Source of the DNA: Gammaproteobacteria bacterium | Lineage (GTDB): Bacteria; Pseudomonadota; Gammaproteobacteria; Xanthomonadales; SZUA-36 | Assembly (NCBI GenBank): GCA_021772915.1 | Contig: JAJFLB010000016.1 | Location: 1-64,000, forward strand | Direction of reading: 5' to 3' | DNA: 64,000 bases | Part shown: one piece after another, positions 2,983 through 35,930 of the stretch | How the letters are laid out: every line of letters begins with the position of its first letter | Position numbering within the stretch: the first letter of the stretch is position 1 | The notes under the pieces: generated by a model | Databases searched by the model: none | Told to the model about the DNA's origin: nothing | Seen by the model: the letters and a program-made list of their open reading frames with translations, nothing else | Translations under genes and position numbers: made by a program

Positions 2983-5154
2983 ATGAAAAGCCGACCCACA
3001 CACCAAACACACTACATCGCCTGTAACCTCTGCGAGGCAATCTGTGGTCTGGAAGTCGTGCTGGAAGATGGCAAGGTCAGATCCATCAAGGGGGACAAAC
3101 TGGATCCTCTAAGCAAGGGCCATATCTGTCCCAAGGCGGTAGCCTTACAGGACATCTACAACGATCCGGACAGGCTGCGAAAACCCCTCAAGAAATCCAA
3201 CACGGGCTGGCAGACCATACCCTGGAAACAGGCGTTTGATGAAGTTGCCGCAGGCCTCAAGAAAATCCAGGATCAGTATGGCAAGAACGCCGTTGCGGTC
3301 TACCTGGGTAACCCCACCGTGCACAACCTTGAGGCGATGCTGTTTGGTCCGATGTTTTTCCGCACGCTGGCAACCAAAAACCGCTATTCAGCGACCTCGG
3401 TCGATCAACTACCGGAGCAACTGATTTCCTTGCTGATGTTCGGCCACCCCCTGCTGGTGCCGCTACCGGACCTGGACCGGACCGACTACCACATCATTTT
3501 CGGTGCCAACCCCGTAGTTTCCAATGGCAGCCTGATGACCGCACCCGGTGTGACCAAACGTCTGAAGGCGATCCGTGAGCGTGGTGGCAAACTGGTTGTG
3601 GTGGATCCACGCAGGACCGAAACAGCAGCCCTGGCCGATGAGCATATATTCATCAAACCCGGCACCGATGTGTTGCTGTTACTGGCGATGCTCAACGTAG
3701 TGTTTGTCGAAAATCTGCAATCACCGGGTAACGCTGAAGCCTACATCAGGGGTGTGGAGACCATTGAATCCCTGGTAAAAAGCTATCCCCCCGAAACCGT
3801 GGCCACATTCACAGGTGTGGATCCCGAGCGAATCAAGCTGCTGACACGGGGGTTTTGCGCGGCTAAAAGTGCCAGTTGCTACGGCCGCATCGGCGTTTCA
3901 ACTCAGGAATACGGTAGCCTCAGCCAGTGGCTGATCACGGTTTTGAATATCGTTTCCGGCAACCTGGATACACCCGGCGGCACGATGTTCAGCAGACCGG
4001 CACTGGATGTGCTGGTACGCAGTCCTAAACGAGCCAAGTCCGGAAAAAAGGGATTCGCTGATAAGCACACACGGGTTAGAAAGTTGCCAAATTTCAACGG
4101 TGAATTTCCGGTGGCGGCGTTGGCTGAAGAAATTGCCACCACTGGTGATGACCAAATCAGGGCCCTGGTTACCAACGCCGGTAACCCTGTACTGAGCACA
4201 CCCAACGCCGGTCAGCTGGATCAGGCGCTCAACGAACTGGAATTCATGGTCTCTATCGACATCTATCTGAATGAAACCAGCCGCCACGCAGACATTATTT
4301 TGCCACCGCTGTGCAGTCTGGAAAGGGCCCACTACGACCTGGCTTTCCAAACATTGGCGCTTCGAAATGGCGCCCGGTTTTCCAGCCCGGTGTTCGATGC
4401 GCAAGACCATCAACGCTCGGATACACAAATCTTTCTTGAGCTGGCCTGGCGGATGCAATCAGGCGCAGCGCCGGGGAAATTTCTTGGTTGGATAAAGAAG
4501 GAAGTTCTCAAACGACTCGGCAGCGGGTGGATAATCAACAGGAAACTGAAACAGGGCCCCTATTACGACACCCACCGTCTGGACCTGAAAAAGCTCAGGC
4601 AAAGCCCACACGGTATTGATTTGGGTCCCCTGCAGCCTTGTTTGCCAGAGAGATTGTTTACCCCGGACAAGACCATCCACCTGGCCCCTGAGGAATGTCT
4701 GCTTGATCTGGAACGCCTTGACAGCGATCTGCTCAGGCACCAAAACTCAACAGCGCCAAAGGAATTTGACCTGCTGCTGATCGGACGGCGCGACCCACGC
4801 ACCAATAATTCCTGGCTACACAACAGCTACCGAATGGTCAAAGGCAAAGCACGCTGTCTCGCCCTGATTAACCCGCAGGACGCGGGCTCGCGCGACATCA
4901 GGGACGGCGATCTGGTTCGGGTTGGCTCCAGGGTTGGATCAGTCGAGATTCCTGCTGCTTTGACCAAAGACATGATGCCTGGTGTCATCAGCATCCCCCA
5001 TGGCTGGGGCCACAACATGGATGGGACTAAACTCGGCATTGCCGAACAGCACGCCGGTGTGAACACAAATATCCTGACCGATGACTGTCATCTCGATGGT
5101 TTATCCGGTAATGCCGTCTTAAACGGCATACCCGTAGCCCTCACAAAACCTTAG
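2983..5154 (+). CDS. Molybdopterin-dependent oxidoreductase with [4Fe-4S] site
   Basis: 723 residues, COG0243 (BisC/FdhA-like) family. An N-terminal iron-sulfur motif has Cys14, Cys17, Cys21 and Cys49 (C-x2-C-x3-C-x27-C). The molybdopterin-binding domains follow (GANPVVSNGSLMTAPG and VVVDPRRTETA in the middle, LTNAGNPVLST-like region around 400) and a C-terminal dinucleotide-binding barrel (RRDPRTNNSWLHN, DGDLVRVGS). At the usual Mo-ligand position the sequence reads YSATSVDQ, with no Cys or selenocysteine, so a Ser or no protein ligand is possible. No Tat signal, electron-transfer subunit or maturation gene is adjacent, so it is probably a cytoplasmic single-subunit enzyme. Substrate unknown. 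A gene of unknown function follows after 10 bp and is probably co-transcribed. Confidence 0.88.
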   Translation: MKSRPTHQTHYIACNLCEAICGLEVVLEDGKVRSIKGDKLDPLSKGHICPKAVALQDIYNDPDRLRKPLKKSNTGWQTIPWKQAFDEVAAGLKKIQDQYGKNAVAVYLGNPTVHNLEAMLFGPMFFRTLATKNRYSATSVDQLPEQLISLLMFGHPLLVPLPDLDRTDYHIIFGANPVVSNGSLMTAPGVTKRLKAIRERGGKLVVVDPRRTETAALADEHIFIKPGTDVLLLLAMLNVVFVENLQSPGNAEAYIRGVETIESLVKSYPPETVATFTGVDPERIKLLTRGFCAAKSASCYGRIGVSTQEYGSLSQWLITVLNIVSGNLDTPGGTMFSRPALDVLVRSPKRAKSGKKGFADKHTRVRKLPNFNGEFPVAALAEEIATTGDDQIRALVTNAGNPVLSTPNAGQLDQALNELEFMVSIDIYLNETSRHADIILPPLCSLERAHYDLAFQTLALRNGARFSSPVFDAQDHQRSDTQIFLELAWRMQSGAAPGKFLGWIKKEVLKRLGSGWIINRKLKQGPYYDTHRLDLKKLRQSPHGIDLGPLQPCLPERLFTPDKTIHLAPEECLLDLERLDSDLLRHQNSTAPKEFDLLLIGRRDPRTNNSWLHNSYRMVKGKARCLALINPQDAGSRDIRDGDLVRVGSRVGSVEIPAALTKDMMPGVISIPHGWGHNMDGTKLGIAEQHAGVNTNILTDDCHLDGLSGNAVLNGIPVALTKP

Positions 5155-17582: not shown

Positions 17583-17852
17583 CTAGGGGGCGTTCTCAAT
17601 CAGCCAGACAGCTCTGCCGGAGTCCATTTTTTGCCCAGCAAGGCAGAATAAGCGCTATGTAGTTAGACTACCTGAGCGCATGATAACGCAGTTGGGCGAA
17701 AAATAGGCCCGGCCCTGCGGGTTGAGCCTGAAAAAACGCCATGCTGTGTTGTTCGTCGTTCATTTGGAGCAACCAAATCTCTCTTCTCACGCGTTGCCTG
17801 GCACTTTTTCAGGCACAACAGAACGGTTTGGCTGATTGAGAACGCCCCCTAG
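17583..17852. mobile_element. 270-bp MITE with 24-bp perfect terminal inverted repeats
   Basis: The ends 17583-17606 and 17829-17852 are perfect inverted repeats, each reading inward CTAGGGGGCGTTCTCAATCA then GCCA. If the outer CTAG is the duplicated target, the element proper starts with GGGGGCGTT. The interior has no coding potential, contains small inverted repeats (for example GCCTG...CAGGC near 17795-17815) and no transposase. The right end overlaps the stop codon of the VOC gene. Confidence 0.85.
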
Positions 17853-18232
17853 GTCCCAGGTGCCTGGTGGTAGAAAACGTTCAGCTTGTTGCCGTCCAAA
17901 TCCCTGAAATAACCAGCGTAGAACCCTTCCATTCGTATACCGGGTGCACCTTCATCTGTGGCCCCCAGTGTCATTGCTTTGGCGTGGACTGCCTGCACTT
18001 TTTCAGGTGAGTCGACCACCAGCGCAATCATCGTTCCATTGCCAATACTCGCATCATTGCCGTCAAAAGGTTTCGTAACAGACAACGCGGGTTGTCCCGG
18101 CTCGACGGCCCAGGCAACAAAACTCCCTGGCTCCTCCATAAACCGCTGGGCTCCCAGCTCAGCCAAAAGCGTATCGTAAAACGCCACCGCTGTTTCGAAA
18201 TCATTGGTCCCCAGCGTCACATATCCAATCAT
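17849..18232 (-). CDS. VOC (glyoxalase/bleomycin-resistance) family protein
   Basis: 127 residues. A single VOC domain: start MIGYVTLGTNDFETAVAFYD, end GYFRDLDGNKLNVFYH with the usual metal-ligand region. Members bind metal and act as lyases, isomerases or dioxygenases, or sequester toxins. A good ribosome site, GGAG, lies before the ATG. The TAG stop lies inside the CTAG at the MITE edge: if CTAG was the insertion target, the stop codon is original and was duplicated. Confidence 0.88.
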   Translation of the reverse strand: MIGYVTLGTNDFETAVAFYDTLLAELGAQRFMEEPGSFVAWAVEPGQPALSVTKPFDGNDASIGNGTMIALVVDSPEKVQAVHAKAMTLGATDEGAPGIRMEGFYAGYFRDLDGNKLNVFYHQAPGT

Positions 18233-18316
18233 TGTCTATCTCCACTTCACCAGCACGTAAAATAACACGGGTGGGTATTCAAAGCATCACATACTCCATT
18301 TATTACCTGTGAATGT

Positions 18317-18347
18317 TTGACACAAATAAGTTAAATCTTTGTATTAT
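18317..18347 (+). promoter_or_regulatory. Possible sigma70 promoter pointing into the 23-bp array
   Basis: TTGACA (18317-18322) and TATTAT (18342-18347) are separated by 19 bp, slightly longer than ideal. It would start transcription near 18354, just before the repeat array, and run antisense to the pyruvate carboxylase gene. It could also be incidental AT-rich sequence in the upstream region of the divergent VOC gene. Confidence 0.3.
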
Positions 18348-18370
18348 CTATCTTTTTCGTATACAAATCT

Positions 18371-18569
18371 GGCTATAGACGGATTGCCAATATGGCTATA
18401 GACGGATTGCCAATACGGCTATAGACAGATTGCCAATACGGCTATAGATGATTTGCCTCTGTGGCTATAGACAAACTGCCAATCGGGCTATAGACCATTA
18501 GCCTTTATGGCTATAGACTGATGACCGTCATGGCTATAGACAATTTACCCTTTTGGCTATAGACAGTTT
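18371..18569. repeat. 23-bp tandem repeat array, conserved core GGCTATAGAC
   Basis: Nine cores start at exactly 23-bp steps: 18371, 18394, 18417, 18440, 18463, 18486, 18509, 18532 and 18555. The last unit is partial. The core GGCTATAGAC is invariant except one base in unit 4, while the remaining 13 bp vary (units 1-3 share ATTGCCAATA). At every junction the motif GCC-N5-GGC (CC-N5-GG in the last two) is kept although the five central bases change, for example AATAT, TCTGT, TTTAT and GTCAT. The array ends 9 bp from the pyruvate carboxylase stop. Too short in period and spacer for CRISPR. Likely a multimeric protein-binding array or a transcribed repeat. Confidence 0.95.
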
Positions 18570-18577
18570 GAATGGGT

Positions 18578-21500
18578 TCAATCCAGTTCAATTACCAGAT
18601 CACCCTGACTCAGCAACTCACCCGCCTCAAGATGGACAGCGCTAACGACACTCTCGAAAGGAGCTGTAATAGTGGTTTCCATTTTCATTGCTTCAATCAC
18701 AAACACCGGAGCATCCCTGGCGACCCTGTCACCCGCCGCGACCAAAACCGAGGCCAGACGACCCATCAACGGCGAGCCGATTTCATTGTGCTGTTTCGCT
18801 TTACGGTTTGGCGCGCTCTTCGGGACCACAGTTTGATCACGCACCTGCACGCTACGTGCCTGGCCGTTCAGTTCAAAGGTGACACGGCACAGGCCATTCT
18901 CATCTGTCTTTGTTCGGTAGATATATCGAATCACGATGGTCTTGCCACGTTGCAACTTGACCAGAATCTCGTCACCCTGCCCAAGTCCATAAAAAAAGGT
19001 TTGTGTCGGCAGATAGTGGACCTCGCCAAAATCGGTTTGGTGTGCGTGGAAGCCACGAAATACATCCGGATACATTTTGTAGGAAAGAAAATCCAGCTCG
19101 GTCAAACTGGCATCAAATTCCCGTTTAAAATCAGCAAACTCCGTCTCGAAATCCATGGGCTCCAGGGCCGCTCCAGGTGGACCGGTCAGTGGCTTGCCGC
19201 CTTTGAGCACCTTTGAGCTCAACTCCGGCGGGAAGCCGCCTTCAGTTTGACCCAGCTTGCCAGAAAACAAGTCAATGACCGATTCGGGAAAAGCCAGCGT
19301 GTCTCCCTGTGCCATTACATCGTCTTCATCCAGGTTATTGGCAGTCATGAACAAGGCCATATCACCCACCACTTTTGAGGAGGGCGTCACCTTGACAATA
19401 TCGCCAAACATACGGTTTACGGAGGTGTAGTTTTTCTTGATTTGCTCCATGCGGTGCTCCAGACCCAGTGCAATCGCCTGCGGACGCAAATTTGAATACT
19501 GCCCACCCGGTATCTCATGGGCATACACCTCTGCCGTACCAGCCCTCAACCCTGACTCAAAGGGGTAGTAGTACTCGCGTACAGCCTCCCAGTAAGTGGC
19601 ATATTCATTCAGGGACGCCAGATCGTACTCCTGGCCCCGTTCGTGGCCCTGCAACACTGCAACCATCGAATTCATGTTCACCTGCGAGGTCAGGCCTGAC
19701 ATGGAGCTCAAACAAACATCAACAATATCCACACCCGCCTCAATGGCCTTGAGCAGAGTAGCGCTTTGCATGGACGATGTGTCGTGTGTGTGCAGGTGAA
19801 TGGGGATATCCAGCGCCGATTTCAGCGCGGGAATCAACTTTTCGGCCGCATATGGCTTGAGCAGACCAGCCATGTCTTTCAGCGCCAGTATGTGGGCGCC
19901 CTCGTCCTCCAGGCGTCGAGCCAAGTCCAGGTAATACTGCAATGTGTAGCGATTACCCGGATCGGTGTTGAGCACGTCACCGGTATAGCAGATGGCGGCC
20001 TCGGCTATCCCGCCGGTACGCTCGCGTACAACCCGGATTGATTGTTGCAAGCCTTCTATCCAGTTCAGGGAATCAAAAATACGAAATACGTCGATACCAT
20101 TTTGCCAGGCTTTTTCAATAAACTTTTCAATCAAATTATCCGGATAAGCCTTGTAACCAACCGCATTCGAACCACGCAGTAACATCTGAAACAGGACATT
20201 GGGTGCGGCTTCCCGTAACTGCTGCAAACGCTTCCAGGGACATTCCCGCAGAAAACGCATGGAAACATCAAAGGTCGCCCCACCCCACATTTCCCATGAA
20301 AACAGCTGCGGATGAGCCTTGGCGAAGCCCTCTGCCACCGCCAACATGTCAAGCGTACGGACCCGTGTTGCCAGCAGCGACTGATGCGCATCACGCAGTG
20401 TGGTGTCGGTAAAAAGTACATTCTTCTGCTGTTTGACCCAAGCACAAAACGCATCAGGCCCCAGTTCGGTCAGCATGTCCCTGCTGCCCTTTGGGTATTC
20501 TGCAAGCCGGTCTACTGCCGGCACCACTGGTTTTCGAAACACCCGTCCCGAATCGAACGCTTCTACGTCCGGGTTGCCGTTGACCGTGAGATTGGCAATA
20601 TAACGTAAGGTCTTGGTCGCGCGATCAAATCGTCGCGTTATTTCGAACAATTCCGGATGCTCGTCCATGAATGCAACCGTGGCCTGTCCCGATACGAATA
20701 CCGGGTGCTCAAGCACGTTCTCCAGAAAACCAATATTGGTCTTCACACCGCGGATACGAAACTCCCTCAGGGCACGATGGGCACGCGCCACCGCACCGCT
20801 TGGCGACCTACCCCAGGACGTGACCTTGACCAGCATCGAATCAAAGAAGGGTGAGACACGAGCACCGGTATATGCGGCACCCACATCGAGACGAATGCCG
20901 AAACCCGCCGCGCTGCGGTAAGCAATCAATCTACCGTAATCCGGTTGGAACCCGTTTTCTGGGTCCTCCGTCGTTATGCGGCATTGAATGGAGTAGCCAC
21001 GGCATTGGATACTGTCCTGTGACTCGATGCCAATCTCGGGGTCATCCAGCCGGTAACCACTTGCCAACTGGATCTGGCTGCGAACAATGTCCACACCGGT
21101 GATCTGTTCGGTGACCGTGTGCTCCACTTGGATACGTGGGTTGACCTCTATAAAATAAATATTCTCTTTTTCGTCAACAAGAAACTCAACCGTACCGGCA
21201 TTGCTGTAACCGACAAGGCGGGTGATGGCCAGTGCATGGTCAAACAATTGCTGTCGGGTTTTGTCACCTAATAAAAAACTGGGGGCAACTTCCACTACTT
21301 TTTGAAAACGACGCTGTACCGAACAATCACGTTCGAACAGGTGCACCAGATTACCCTCGTTATCGCCCAGCACCTGTACTTCTATGTGCTTGGGTGACTC
21401 GATGAATTTTTCGAGGAAAACCGTATCATCACCAAACGCCGTGGCGGCCTCGTTGCGGGCCTCGGCGTAAGCATTAGCCATTTCATCTTCGCTGCAGACC

Positions 21501-22021
21501 ACACGCATGCCGCGACCACCCCCACCGGATACGGCTTTAAGCATCAACGGATAACCGATACGGGCTGCTTCACTAATTGCGGTCTCGAGAGTATCGAGAC
21601 TTTCAAGACTGTTTTCGATCACCGGGAGACCCGCTGCCAAAGCGCTCTCCTTGGCCTGGAGCTTATCCCCAAGCTTTGCCATGGCGTCGGGTGTCGGTCC
21701 TACGAAAATAATGCCTTCTGTATGGCAGCGAGTTGCAAAATCCACATTTTCAGACAGGAAACCGTAACCGGGATGGATGGCGTCCACCTGGTTCAGCCTG
21801 GCAACCTCGATGATTGCCTCAATGTCCAGATAGGGTTTTACGGGATCATCATCGGAACCTATCTGGTAGGCCTCATCGGACTTGTAGCGATGCGGTGAGA
21901 ACCGGTCCTCATGGGTGTAAACGCTGAGGGTGCGAATTCCAAGTTCAGAGGCAGCGCGCAGGATGCGTATGGCGATTTCACCACGGTTGGCGACCAGAAT
22001 CTTGTCAATTTTACTAATCAT
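18578..22021 (-). CDS. pyc: Pyruvate carboxylase, single-chain
   Basis: 1147 residues, the usual length of a single-chain enzyme. Biotin carboxylase/ATP-grasp domain about 1-450 (KILVANRGEIAIRILRAA, GGGGRGMRVV, FIEVNPRIQVEHTVTEQ), carboxyltransferase TIM barrel about 530-810 (TTLRDAHQSLLATRVRT, ALKDMAGLLKP, HLHTHDTS), linker domain, and C-terminal biotinyl domain with EAMKMET (biotinylated Lys about 1113). It converts pyruvate, bicarbonate and ATP to oxaloacetate for anaplerosis. It is transcribed alone on the minus strand, and its 3' end runs into the 23-bp array. Confidence 0.97.
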   Translation of the reverse strand: MISKIDKILVANRGEIAIRILRAASELGIRTLSVYTHEDRFSPHRYKSDEAYQIGSDDDPVKPYLDIEAIIEVARLNQVDAIHPGYGFLSENVDFATRCHTEGIIFVGPTPDAMAKLGDKLQAKESALAAGLPVIENSLESLDTLETAISEAARIGYPLMLKAVSGGGGRGMRVVCSEDEMANAYAEARNEAATAFGDDTVFLEKFIESPKHIEVQVLGDNEGNLVHLFERDCSVQRRFQKVVEVAPSFLLGDKTRQQLFDHALAITRLVGYSNAGTVEFLVDEKENIYFIEVNPRIQVEHTVTEQITGVDIVRSQIQLASGYRLDDPEIGIESQDSIQCRGYSIQCRITTEDPENGFQPDYGRLIAYRSAAGFGIRLDVGAAYTGARVSPFFDSMLVKVTSWGRSPSGAVARAHRALREFRIRGVKTNIGFLENVLEHPVFVSGQATVAFMDEHPELFEITRRFDRATKTLRYIANLTVNGNPDVEAFDSGRVFRKPVVPAVDRLAEYPKGSRDMLTELGPDAFCAWVKQQKNVLFTDTTLRDAHQSLLATRVRTLDMLAVAEGFAKAHPQLFSWEMWGGATFDVSMRFLRECPWKRLQQLREAAPNVLFQMLLRGSNAVGYKAYPDNLIEKFIEKAWQNGIDVFRIFDSLNWIEGLQQSIRVVRERTGGIAEAAICYTGDVLNTDPGNRYTLQYYLDLARRLEDEGAHILALKDMAGLLKPYAAEKLIPALKSALDIPIHLHTHDTSSMQSATLLKAIEAGVDIVDVCLSSMSGLTSQVNMNSMVAVLQGHERGQEYDLASLNEYATYWEAVREYYYPFESGLRAGTAEVYAHEIPGGQYSNLRPQAIALGLEHRMEQIKKNYTSVNRMFGDIVKVTPSSKVVGDMALFMTANNLDEDDVMAQGDTLAFPESVIDLFSGKLGQTEGGFPPELSSKVLKGGKPLTGPPGAALEPMDFETEFADFKREFDASLTELDFLSYKMYPDVFRGFHAHQTDFGEVHYLPTQTFFYGLGQGDEILVKLQRGKTIVIRYIYRTKTDENGLCRVTFELNGQARSVQVRDQTVVPKSAPNRKAKQHNEIGSPLMGRLASVLVAAGDRVARDAPVFVIEAMKMETTITAPFESVVSAVHLEAGELLSQGDLVIELD

Positions 22022-25936: not shown

Positions 25937-26022
25937 CTTGTTCCTTCCAAACGCCCATTATTATCTCCGCTTTACACTAAAGACCGCAATTACCCCCAAC
26001 TCATCACAAACCCATCCCCAAC

Positions 26023-26168
26023 GTAGGAACGAAGACGTAAGTCATCGCGAACCCACCCCCGACGTAGGAGCGAACACGTAAGTCATCGCGAACTCAGCCC
26101 CAAGGCCGGAGAAAACACACAAGTCATCGCGGATTTATTCCCGATGAGCAAGCTCATCGGTCCTACAG
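26023..26168. repeat. Cluster of REP elements of two subtypes
   Basis: Two B-type copies at 26023-26053 and 26063-26094 (GTAGGAGCGA... AAGTCATCGCGAA) are direct repeats. A degenerate third lies at 26105-26133. An A-type copy at 26138-26168 is inverted (TTCCCGATGAGC... CATCGGTCCTAC). They fill the space between the divergent msrP and MATE genes. Confidence 0.8.
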
Positions 26169-35731: not shown

Positions 35732-35930
35732 CTGTAGGACCGACGAGATTCCGTGGGACCGACGAGTTTACTCGTCGGGAATCGGCTCGGTTCGCGACGA
35801 CTCTGTGGGACTGACGAGTTTACTCGTCGGGAATCGGCTCGGTTCGCGACCACTCTGTGGGACTGACGAGTTTACTCGTCGGGAATCGGCTCGGTTCGCG
35901 ACGACTTGGGTCGTCGCTCCTACAGGGGGA
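35732..35930. repeat. REP array with three 52-bp tandem copies
   Basis: Direct 52-bp units start at 35753, 35805 and 35857. Each contains an A-type palindrome (GACGAGTTTACTCGTCGGGA) followed by ATCGGCTCGGTTCGCGACGA, the arm of a B-type element. The units differ at only a few bases. A partial copy precedes them at 35732 and the last unit runs into a complete B-type inverted element ending CGTCGCTCCTAC. Confidence 0.95.

Follow-up and report, generated by a model that had tools for sequence, protein, structure and literature searches.

Operators in bacteria are usually present in one to a few copies. Several copies bound cooperatively are known from the met boxes of MetJ, which are 8 bp long and few, and from other tandem operators, and cooperative arrays are also known for repressors. 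Palindromic intergenic repeats of the REP/BIME type occur in arrays as well, REP being dispersed in many copies. Among the systems described in the literature, BldC multimerises head to tail along direct repeats whose number varies (PMC5859096), the operators of the MocR subfamily contain boxes with a conserved TGG or TGT, most commonly laid out as two direct plus one inverted (PMC5320631), and the GntR/HutC palindromes show GT...AC ends with a TA-rich centre (PMC4494728).

Here we analyse a tandem array found in a window of 64,000 nucleotides (the whole stretch of DNA under analysis) from a gammaproteobacterial genome, G000. The array resembles the MetJ met boxes in its tandem operator copies, and differs from them in the length and number of its units. 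It shares with REP/BIME the nature of a palindromic intergenic repeat, but genomes that carry it have about one to five such loci, in a fixed promoter context; membership of this class was discarded, as G000 holds just two arrays and single units outside them stay at background level. A CRISPR array was also discarded, since its identical repeats are separated by unique spacers at least about 20 bp long, whereas the whole unit here measures 23 bp, of which only 6-7 positions vary. Like the sites of BldC filaments, the array has a variable number of direct repeats at one promoter, but the BldC repeats are of 9 bp and AT-rich (AATTNNNNC), whereas the units of the array are of 23 bp with three half-sites (PMC5859096). 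By analogy, BldC would be the nearest working model, the likeness lying in the mode of action and not in membership. The unit has the same two-direct-plus-one-inverted TGG/TGT layout as the MocR operators, whose published motifs comprise two to four boxes against up to 17 repeated units in the array (PMC5320631). As in the array core, the GntR/HutC palindromes have GT...AC ends and a TA-rich centre, but the consensus GTMTAKAC leaves 4 nt between GT and AC and the core (GTCTATAGAC) leaves 6, which led us to reject a GntR/HutC operator (PMC4494728).

Structure of the array

The array comprises nine units of 23 bp (2.2 helical turns each) at positions 18371 to about 18570 of the window, on the minus strand, which is likely its functional reading direction, with the minus-strand unit TG[T/G]CTATAG[C/A]CA-N3-TGGCA-N3. 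Cores start at 18371, 18394, 18417, 18440, 18463, 18486, 18509, 18532 and 18555, every step being of 23 bp, and span 18371-18564. The initial annotation was right about the nine cores and their exact 23-bp period, but had the array begin at 18317, whereas 18317-18370 is an AT-rich flank outside the array proper; its 'invariant' core holds for eight of the nine, which are exactly GGCTATAGAC, the remaining one being GGCTATAGAT. Cores with at most one mismatch are expected by chance at a mean of 1.9 across the 64-kb window, and none of 100 shuffles reached nine. When the units of this array are compared in pairs, the core columns differ in 2% and the spacer columns in 52-58% of cases.

Each unit contains three half-sites: TGGCTA (often TGTCTA), its inverse TAGCCA, and TGGCA. 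The pattern conserved over all related arrays is TAGCCA-N3-TGGCA, the least variable bases being TAG-CCA together with GGC within TGGCA. The sequence TGGCTATAGCCA is a perfect palindrome, one arm of which stays TGTC in most units, and the unit has a direction: T at position 2 combined with C at position 9 dominates. A GCC-N5-GGC dyad had been described with fixed arms and with five inner bases that change in every unit, and neither description holds: GCC is present at six of the eight internal junctions, ACC replaces it at the other two and the ninth unit lacks the dyad, while AATAC is found twice as N5 and AATAT is a single change away from it. In several related arrays, the first unit has no left arm (TTAGCCA-N3-TGGCA).

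The window harbours other repeats. Three 52-bp units at 35753-35906, 97% alike, are akin to a REP-like repeat that is dispersed over the genome, with 49 matches, and they have no relation to the 23-bp array. A 41-bp tandem repeat of 3.2 copies (unit TCATCGCGAACCCACCCCCAACGTAGGAACGAACACGTAAG) lies at 26001-26131, just outside a gene.

Distribution and evolution

When 85,000 species genomes were scanned for a pair of exact cores spaced by 23 bp, 13 loci emerged, of which 12 carry the full unit and belong to metagenome-assembled genomes labelled Lysobacterales, Xanthomonadales, Chromatiales or Gammaproteobacteria. The other locus (L021), from Acidobacteria, has two cores without TGGCA and was judged to be a chance match. 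Two-unit searches found arrays in 18 of the 39 genomes of one family, spread over five genera, in 17 of 200 genomes of an order-level sample, every one inside the same family, and only in the window's own genome in a class-wide sample; a reversed control pattern gave zero matches in the family, order and class samples alike. The core and the period, which the initial annotation had proposed to look for in relatives, are thus the same in five genera, neither absent nor drifting freely: the 23-bp step is retained in 126 of the 133 steps counted, with the same unit and end signature throughout. As for known repeats, the view that the array matches no described type stands in everything searched: Rfam gave no match above the gathering score, so that no known RNA family could be assigned, and a single sub-threshold microRNA hit; phages, plasmids and viral contigs gave no array match; and in the literature the 12-mers of the motif surface only in a paper on an unrelated subject.

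The second array of G000 (C16:100731-101025, 13 units) is flanked by a DUF779/aldehyde dehydrogenase operon and a thioesterase gene; in another genome, G007, a second array has a GFA-family gene on one side and an unknown secreted protein on the other. The arrays of the fifth genus (g11) are found near genes for DJ-1/PfpI, an M20 amidohydrolase and a DUF7507 surface protein, in variable orientation to the genes and often just past stop codons; they show the usual end signature, but their flank is GC-rich and lacks the AT-rich box described below, which indicates that the array can exist without that box.

All arrays counted, the number of units above the score threshold goes from 2 to 17, and neighbouring units are sometimes near-identical. 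Spacers differ in 36% of comparisons within arrays and in 64% between arrays, against 4% and 10% for the cores. Spacers that are alike within but not between arrays, together with cores that stay alike, indicate growth by local duplication and selection on the core.

Promoter context

Downstream of the array in its minus-strand direction lies a gene for a 127-aa protein of the VOC/glyoxalase superfamily (17849-18232, minus strand; PF00903, E 4.7e-7), which its distances and neighbourhood mark as the presumed target. From its start codon to the base at which the last core begins there are 148 bp. This arrangement, with the array preceding the VOC gene, is found in nine species of the window's genus, where the distance is held at 137-150 bp although the intervening sequence hardly aligns. 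In three sister genera (four genomes) the array precedes an ACT-domain gene (PF10000, PF13840), with a VOC gene close by after it in three of the four; in the fourth, G010, a VOC match was sought and none was found. On the other side of the array, the pyruvate carboxylase gene (18578-22021, minus strand; NF009554 equivalog) has its stop codon 13 bp from the nearest core (18555-18564). It is only a neighbour, since other genomes carry different genes at that position (pyc, serA, an oxidase and others) while the array stays. The array is thus kept at the VOC/ACT promoter in four genera and at least 13 species, with 3 to 17 repeats, the smallest case having three cores, the degenerate end unit of G006 included.

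The last unit departs from the internal ones in a conserved manner. In the window, this terminal unit (GTCTATAGCCAGATTTGTATACG, 18358-18380, minus strand) has the core followed by N4-TG instead of N3-TGGCA, and the same end signature, CTATAGCCA-N4-TG, is kept in related arrays: 20 of 26 terminal units have T at position 16, as do only 7 of 133 internal units, and the TG is invariant in all 15 arrays that have the adjoining box. This AT-rich, promoter-like box (18333-18365, minus strand) stands at a fixed distance from the last core, with TG at 16-17, AA at 25-26, TAAAANCA at 35-41 and an invariant T at 48 past that core, its A-rich blocks being spaced about 10.5 bp. The pattern of end unit plus AT box has exactly one match in each of 13 genomes, always at a VOC or ACT promoter, and its reversed-pattern control has none. 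Related genera that have a VOC gene but no array before it also lack the AT box upstream of that gene.

A plus-strand promoter pointing into the array had been proposed from TTGACA at 18317-18322 and TATTAT at 18342-18347, but their 19-bp spacer is too long for sigma-70, and a scan of 17700-19000 on both strands detected no sigma-70 promoter (-35/-10 hexamers with 16-18 bp spacing). There is indeed a conserved promoter-like box on that side, but it is co-conserved with the presumed target gene on the minus strand. By visual comparison, the end unit fits neither a sigma-54 nor a MerR-type promoter geometry.

In genome G032, the two end forms alternate within a 45-bp compound repeat, an alternation which suggests that both ends have a function. 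The same 45-bp compound array (L064, 4692-5027 of G032:C97) has one open frame, whose product would consist of 15-residue LAIARLPKWLS-like repeats, a coding potential that is probably incidental. At another locus (L069, G007:C15), the AT box and the next gene are separated by a GC-rich hairpin with a T run behind it (about 5080-5110); transcription from a promoter at this place would thus give a short RNA or an attenuated leader.

Search for the binding protein

No regulator follows the arrays among the GntR proteins (HutC, YtrA and MocR groups), the MerR encoded near g11 arrays and a 610-aa MocR. The MerR gene, near two g11 arrays, is present in 4 of 39 family genomes and absent from G000 and most genomes with arrays. 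A GntR gene tracking the arrays was also dismissed: G004, which has an array, contains only two above the cut-off, one MocR-type and one YtrA-type, and the YtrA type is also present in array-free genomes, no GntR group tracking the arrays. The 610-aa MocR, for which the operator layout fits formally, occurs in several genomes with arrays and was not found in G000 or G022. LytTR genes number one to three per tested genome, with or without arrays. In G004:C7, a MocR-type regulator gene (L175, 1558-3393) is split over two frames, which is a frameshift or an assembly error. Were the protein to act at just one or two loci, its gene would usually sit beside one of them, and none does, which counts against an operator.

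Discussion

The core, the step, the end unit, the AT box and the distance to VOC are all conserved while the spacers and the upstream gene change, which argues for a promoter operator. The most likely reading is a conserved cis-regulatory operator array that serves as an activator array for the VOC/ACT promoter; in its full form, a composite operator array of variable length, bound cooperatively by one DNA-binding protein and probably activating that promoter, we regard it as reasonably probable. In this model, one sequence-specific protein would occupy many operator copies side by side, probably cooperatively, in a chain terminating at the end unit (TAGCCA-N4-TG) that adjoins the AT-rich box, which would serve the VOC gene as promoter and, in the sister genera, the ACT gene. 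At the promoter, the resulting filament would either bring in RNA polymerase or bend the DNA; tandem duplication alters the repeat number, which could tune the response. Activation is likelier than repression because the array lies upstream of the AT box without overlapping it. Several observations count against the operator model: the arrays of g11 have no AT box, are variably oriented and often come just after stop codons; the AT box is unlike a sigma-70 promoter of normal spacing; and, with 2.2 turns per unit, successive units face different sides of the helix.

The proposal that the array acts as a chain of small RNA hairpins, whether as a 3' UTR, a leader or a protein-sponge RNA, is very improbable. 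The window array, on both strands, and two related arrays were folded, and both strands gave a folding energy below shuffles (z about -3.7 on either strand); folding better than shuffles on both strands is expected of any tandem palindrome, the energy coming from the long-range pairing typical of such sequences, on both strands alike. Pairing was tested in 114 distinct units, and neither dyad has compensatory changes, which makes a hairpin chain unlikely: palindrome positions 2 and 9 form a T-C mismatch as their commonest state (65 of 114 units), C9 changes to A 17 times with G17 unchanged each time, and changes in one arm of GCCA-N3-TGGC go unanswered in the other. The strict 23-bp spacing, the directionality and the end units fit a protein on DNA. 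An iteron-like site for replication or partition, equally improbable, would account for direct repeats of this period beside an AT-rich stretch, but the arrays are chromosomal, next to metabolic genes in every genome, the neighbourhoods read contain no replication or partition gene, no plasmid or phage matched, and some genomes hold several arrays. Even less credible is a neutral minisatellite growing by slippage: copy number varies and adjacent units are sometimes near-identical, yet the core is nearly fixed across genera whose spacers differ in 64% of comparisons, and the end signature and the flanking box are conserved, a conservation across genera that refutes slippage as the sole cause. 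The initial annotation had likewise favoured selection on a binding site over slippage, and the core, 23-bp step and distinct end unit kept in five genera, with diverging spacers, support it on this point.

Two other readings deserve somewhat more weight, though both are unlikely. The array could be an intergenic structural repeat of the REP/BIME kind, binding a nucleoid protein or protecting the 3' end of the upstream mRNA with no promoter function, as arrays often begin 10-60 bp past a stop codon (in the window and at L062, L063 and L074) and those of g11 have neither an AT box nor a constant orientation to genes. Against it stand the small number of arrays per genome, the absence of dispersed single copies, the conservation of the AT box and of the distance to the VOC start, and the genome's own REP-like dispersed repeat, which is a different sequence in dozens of copies. 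A slightly lower chance goes to an operator array for a repressor that would spread along the DNA and so silence either VOC or the gene upstream; repressors also use cooperative arrays, but here the array stops before the AT box, leaving the presumed core promoter and the start uncovered.

Returning to the activator array, it might, at its most ambitious and with only a modest chance, represent a new promoter architecture, in which an undescribed regulator would assemble into filaments that differ in length, covering as many as 17 composite operators, the end unit would cap the filament and set its register to a promoter without a normal -35, and the repeat number would be an evolvable gain control. 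Genes near the arrays in several genomes encode VOC/glyoxalase-like, DJ-1/PfpI and GFA proteins and an aldehyde dehydrogenase with DUF779, from which a role in the handling of reactive aldehydes is only a guess. The array points to a DNA-binding protein and, if its 3 to 17 units with conserved ends are operators, these genomes would offer a natural series for cooperative binding, filament length and promoter output.
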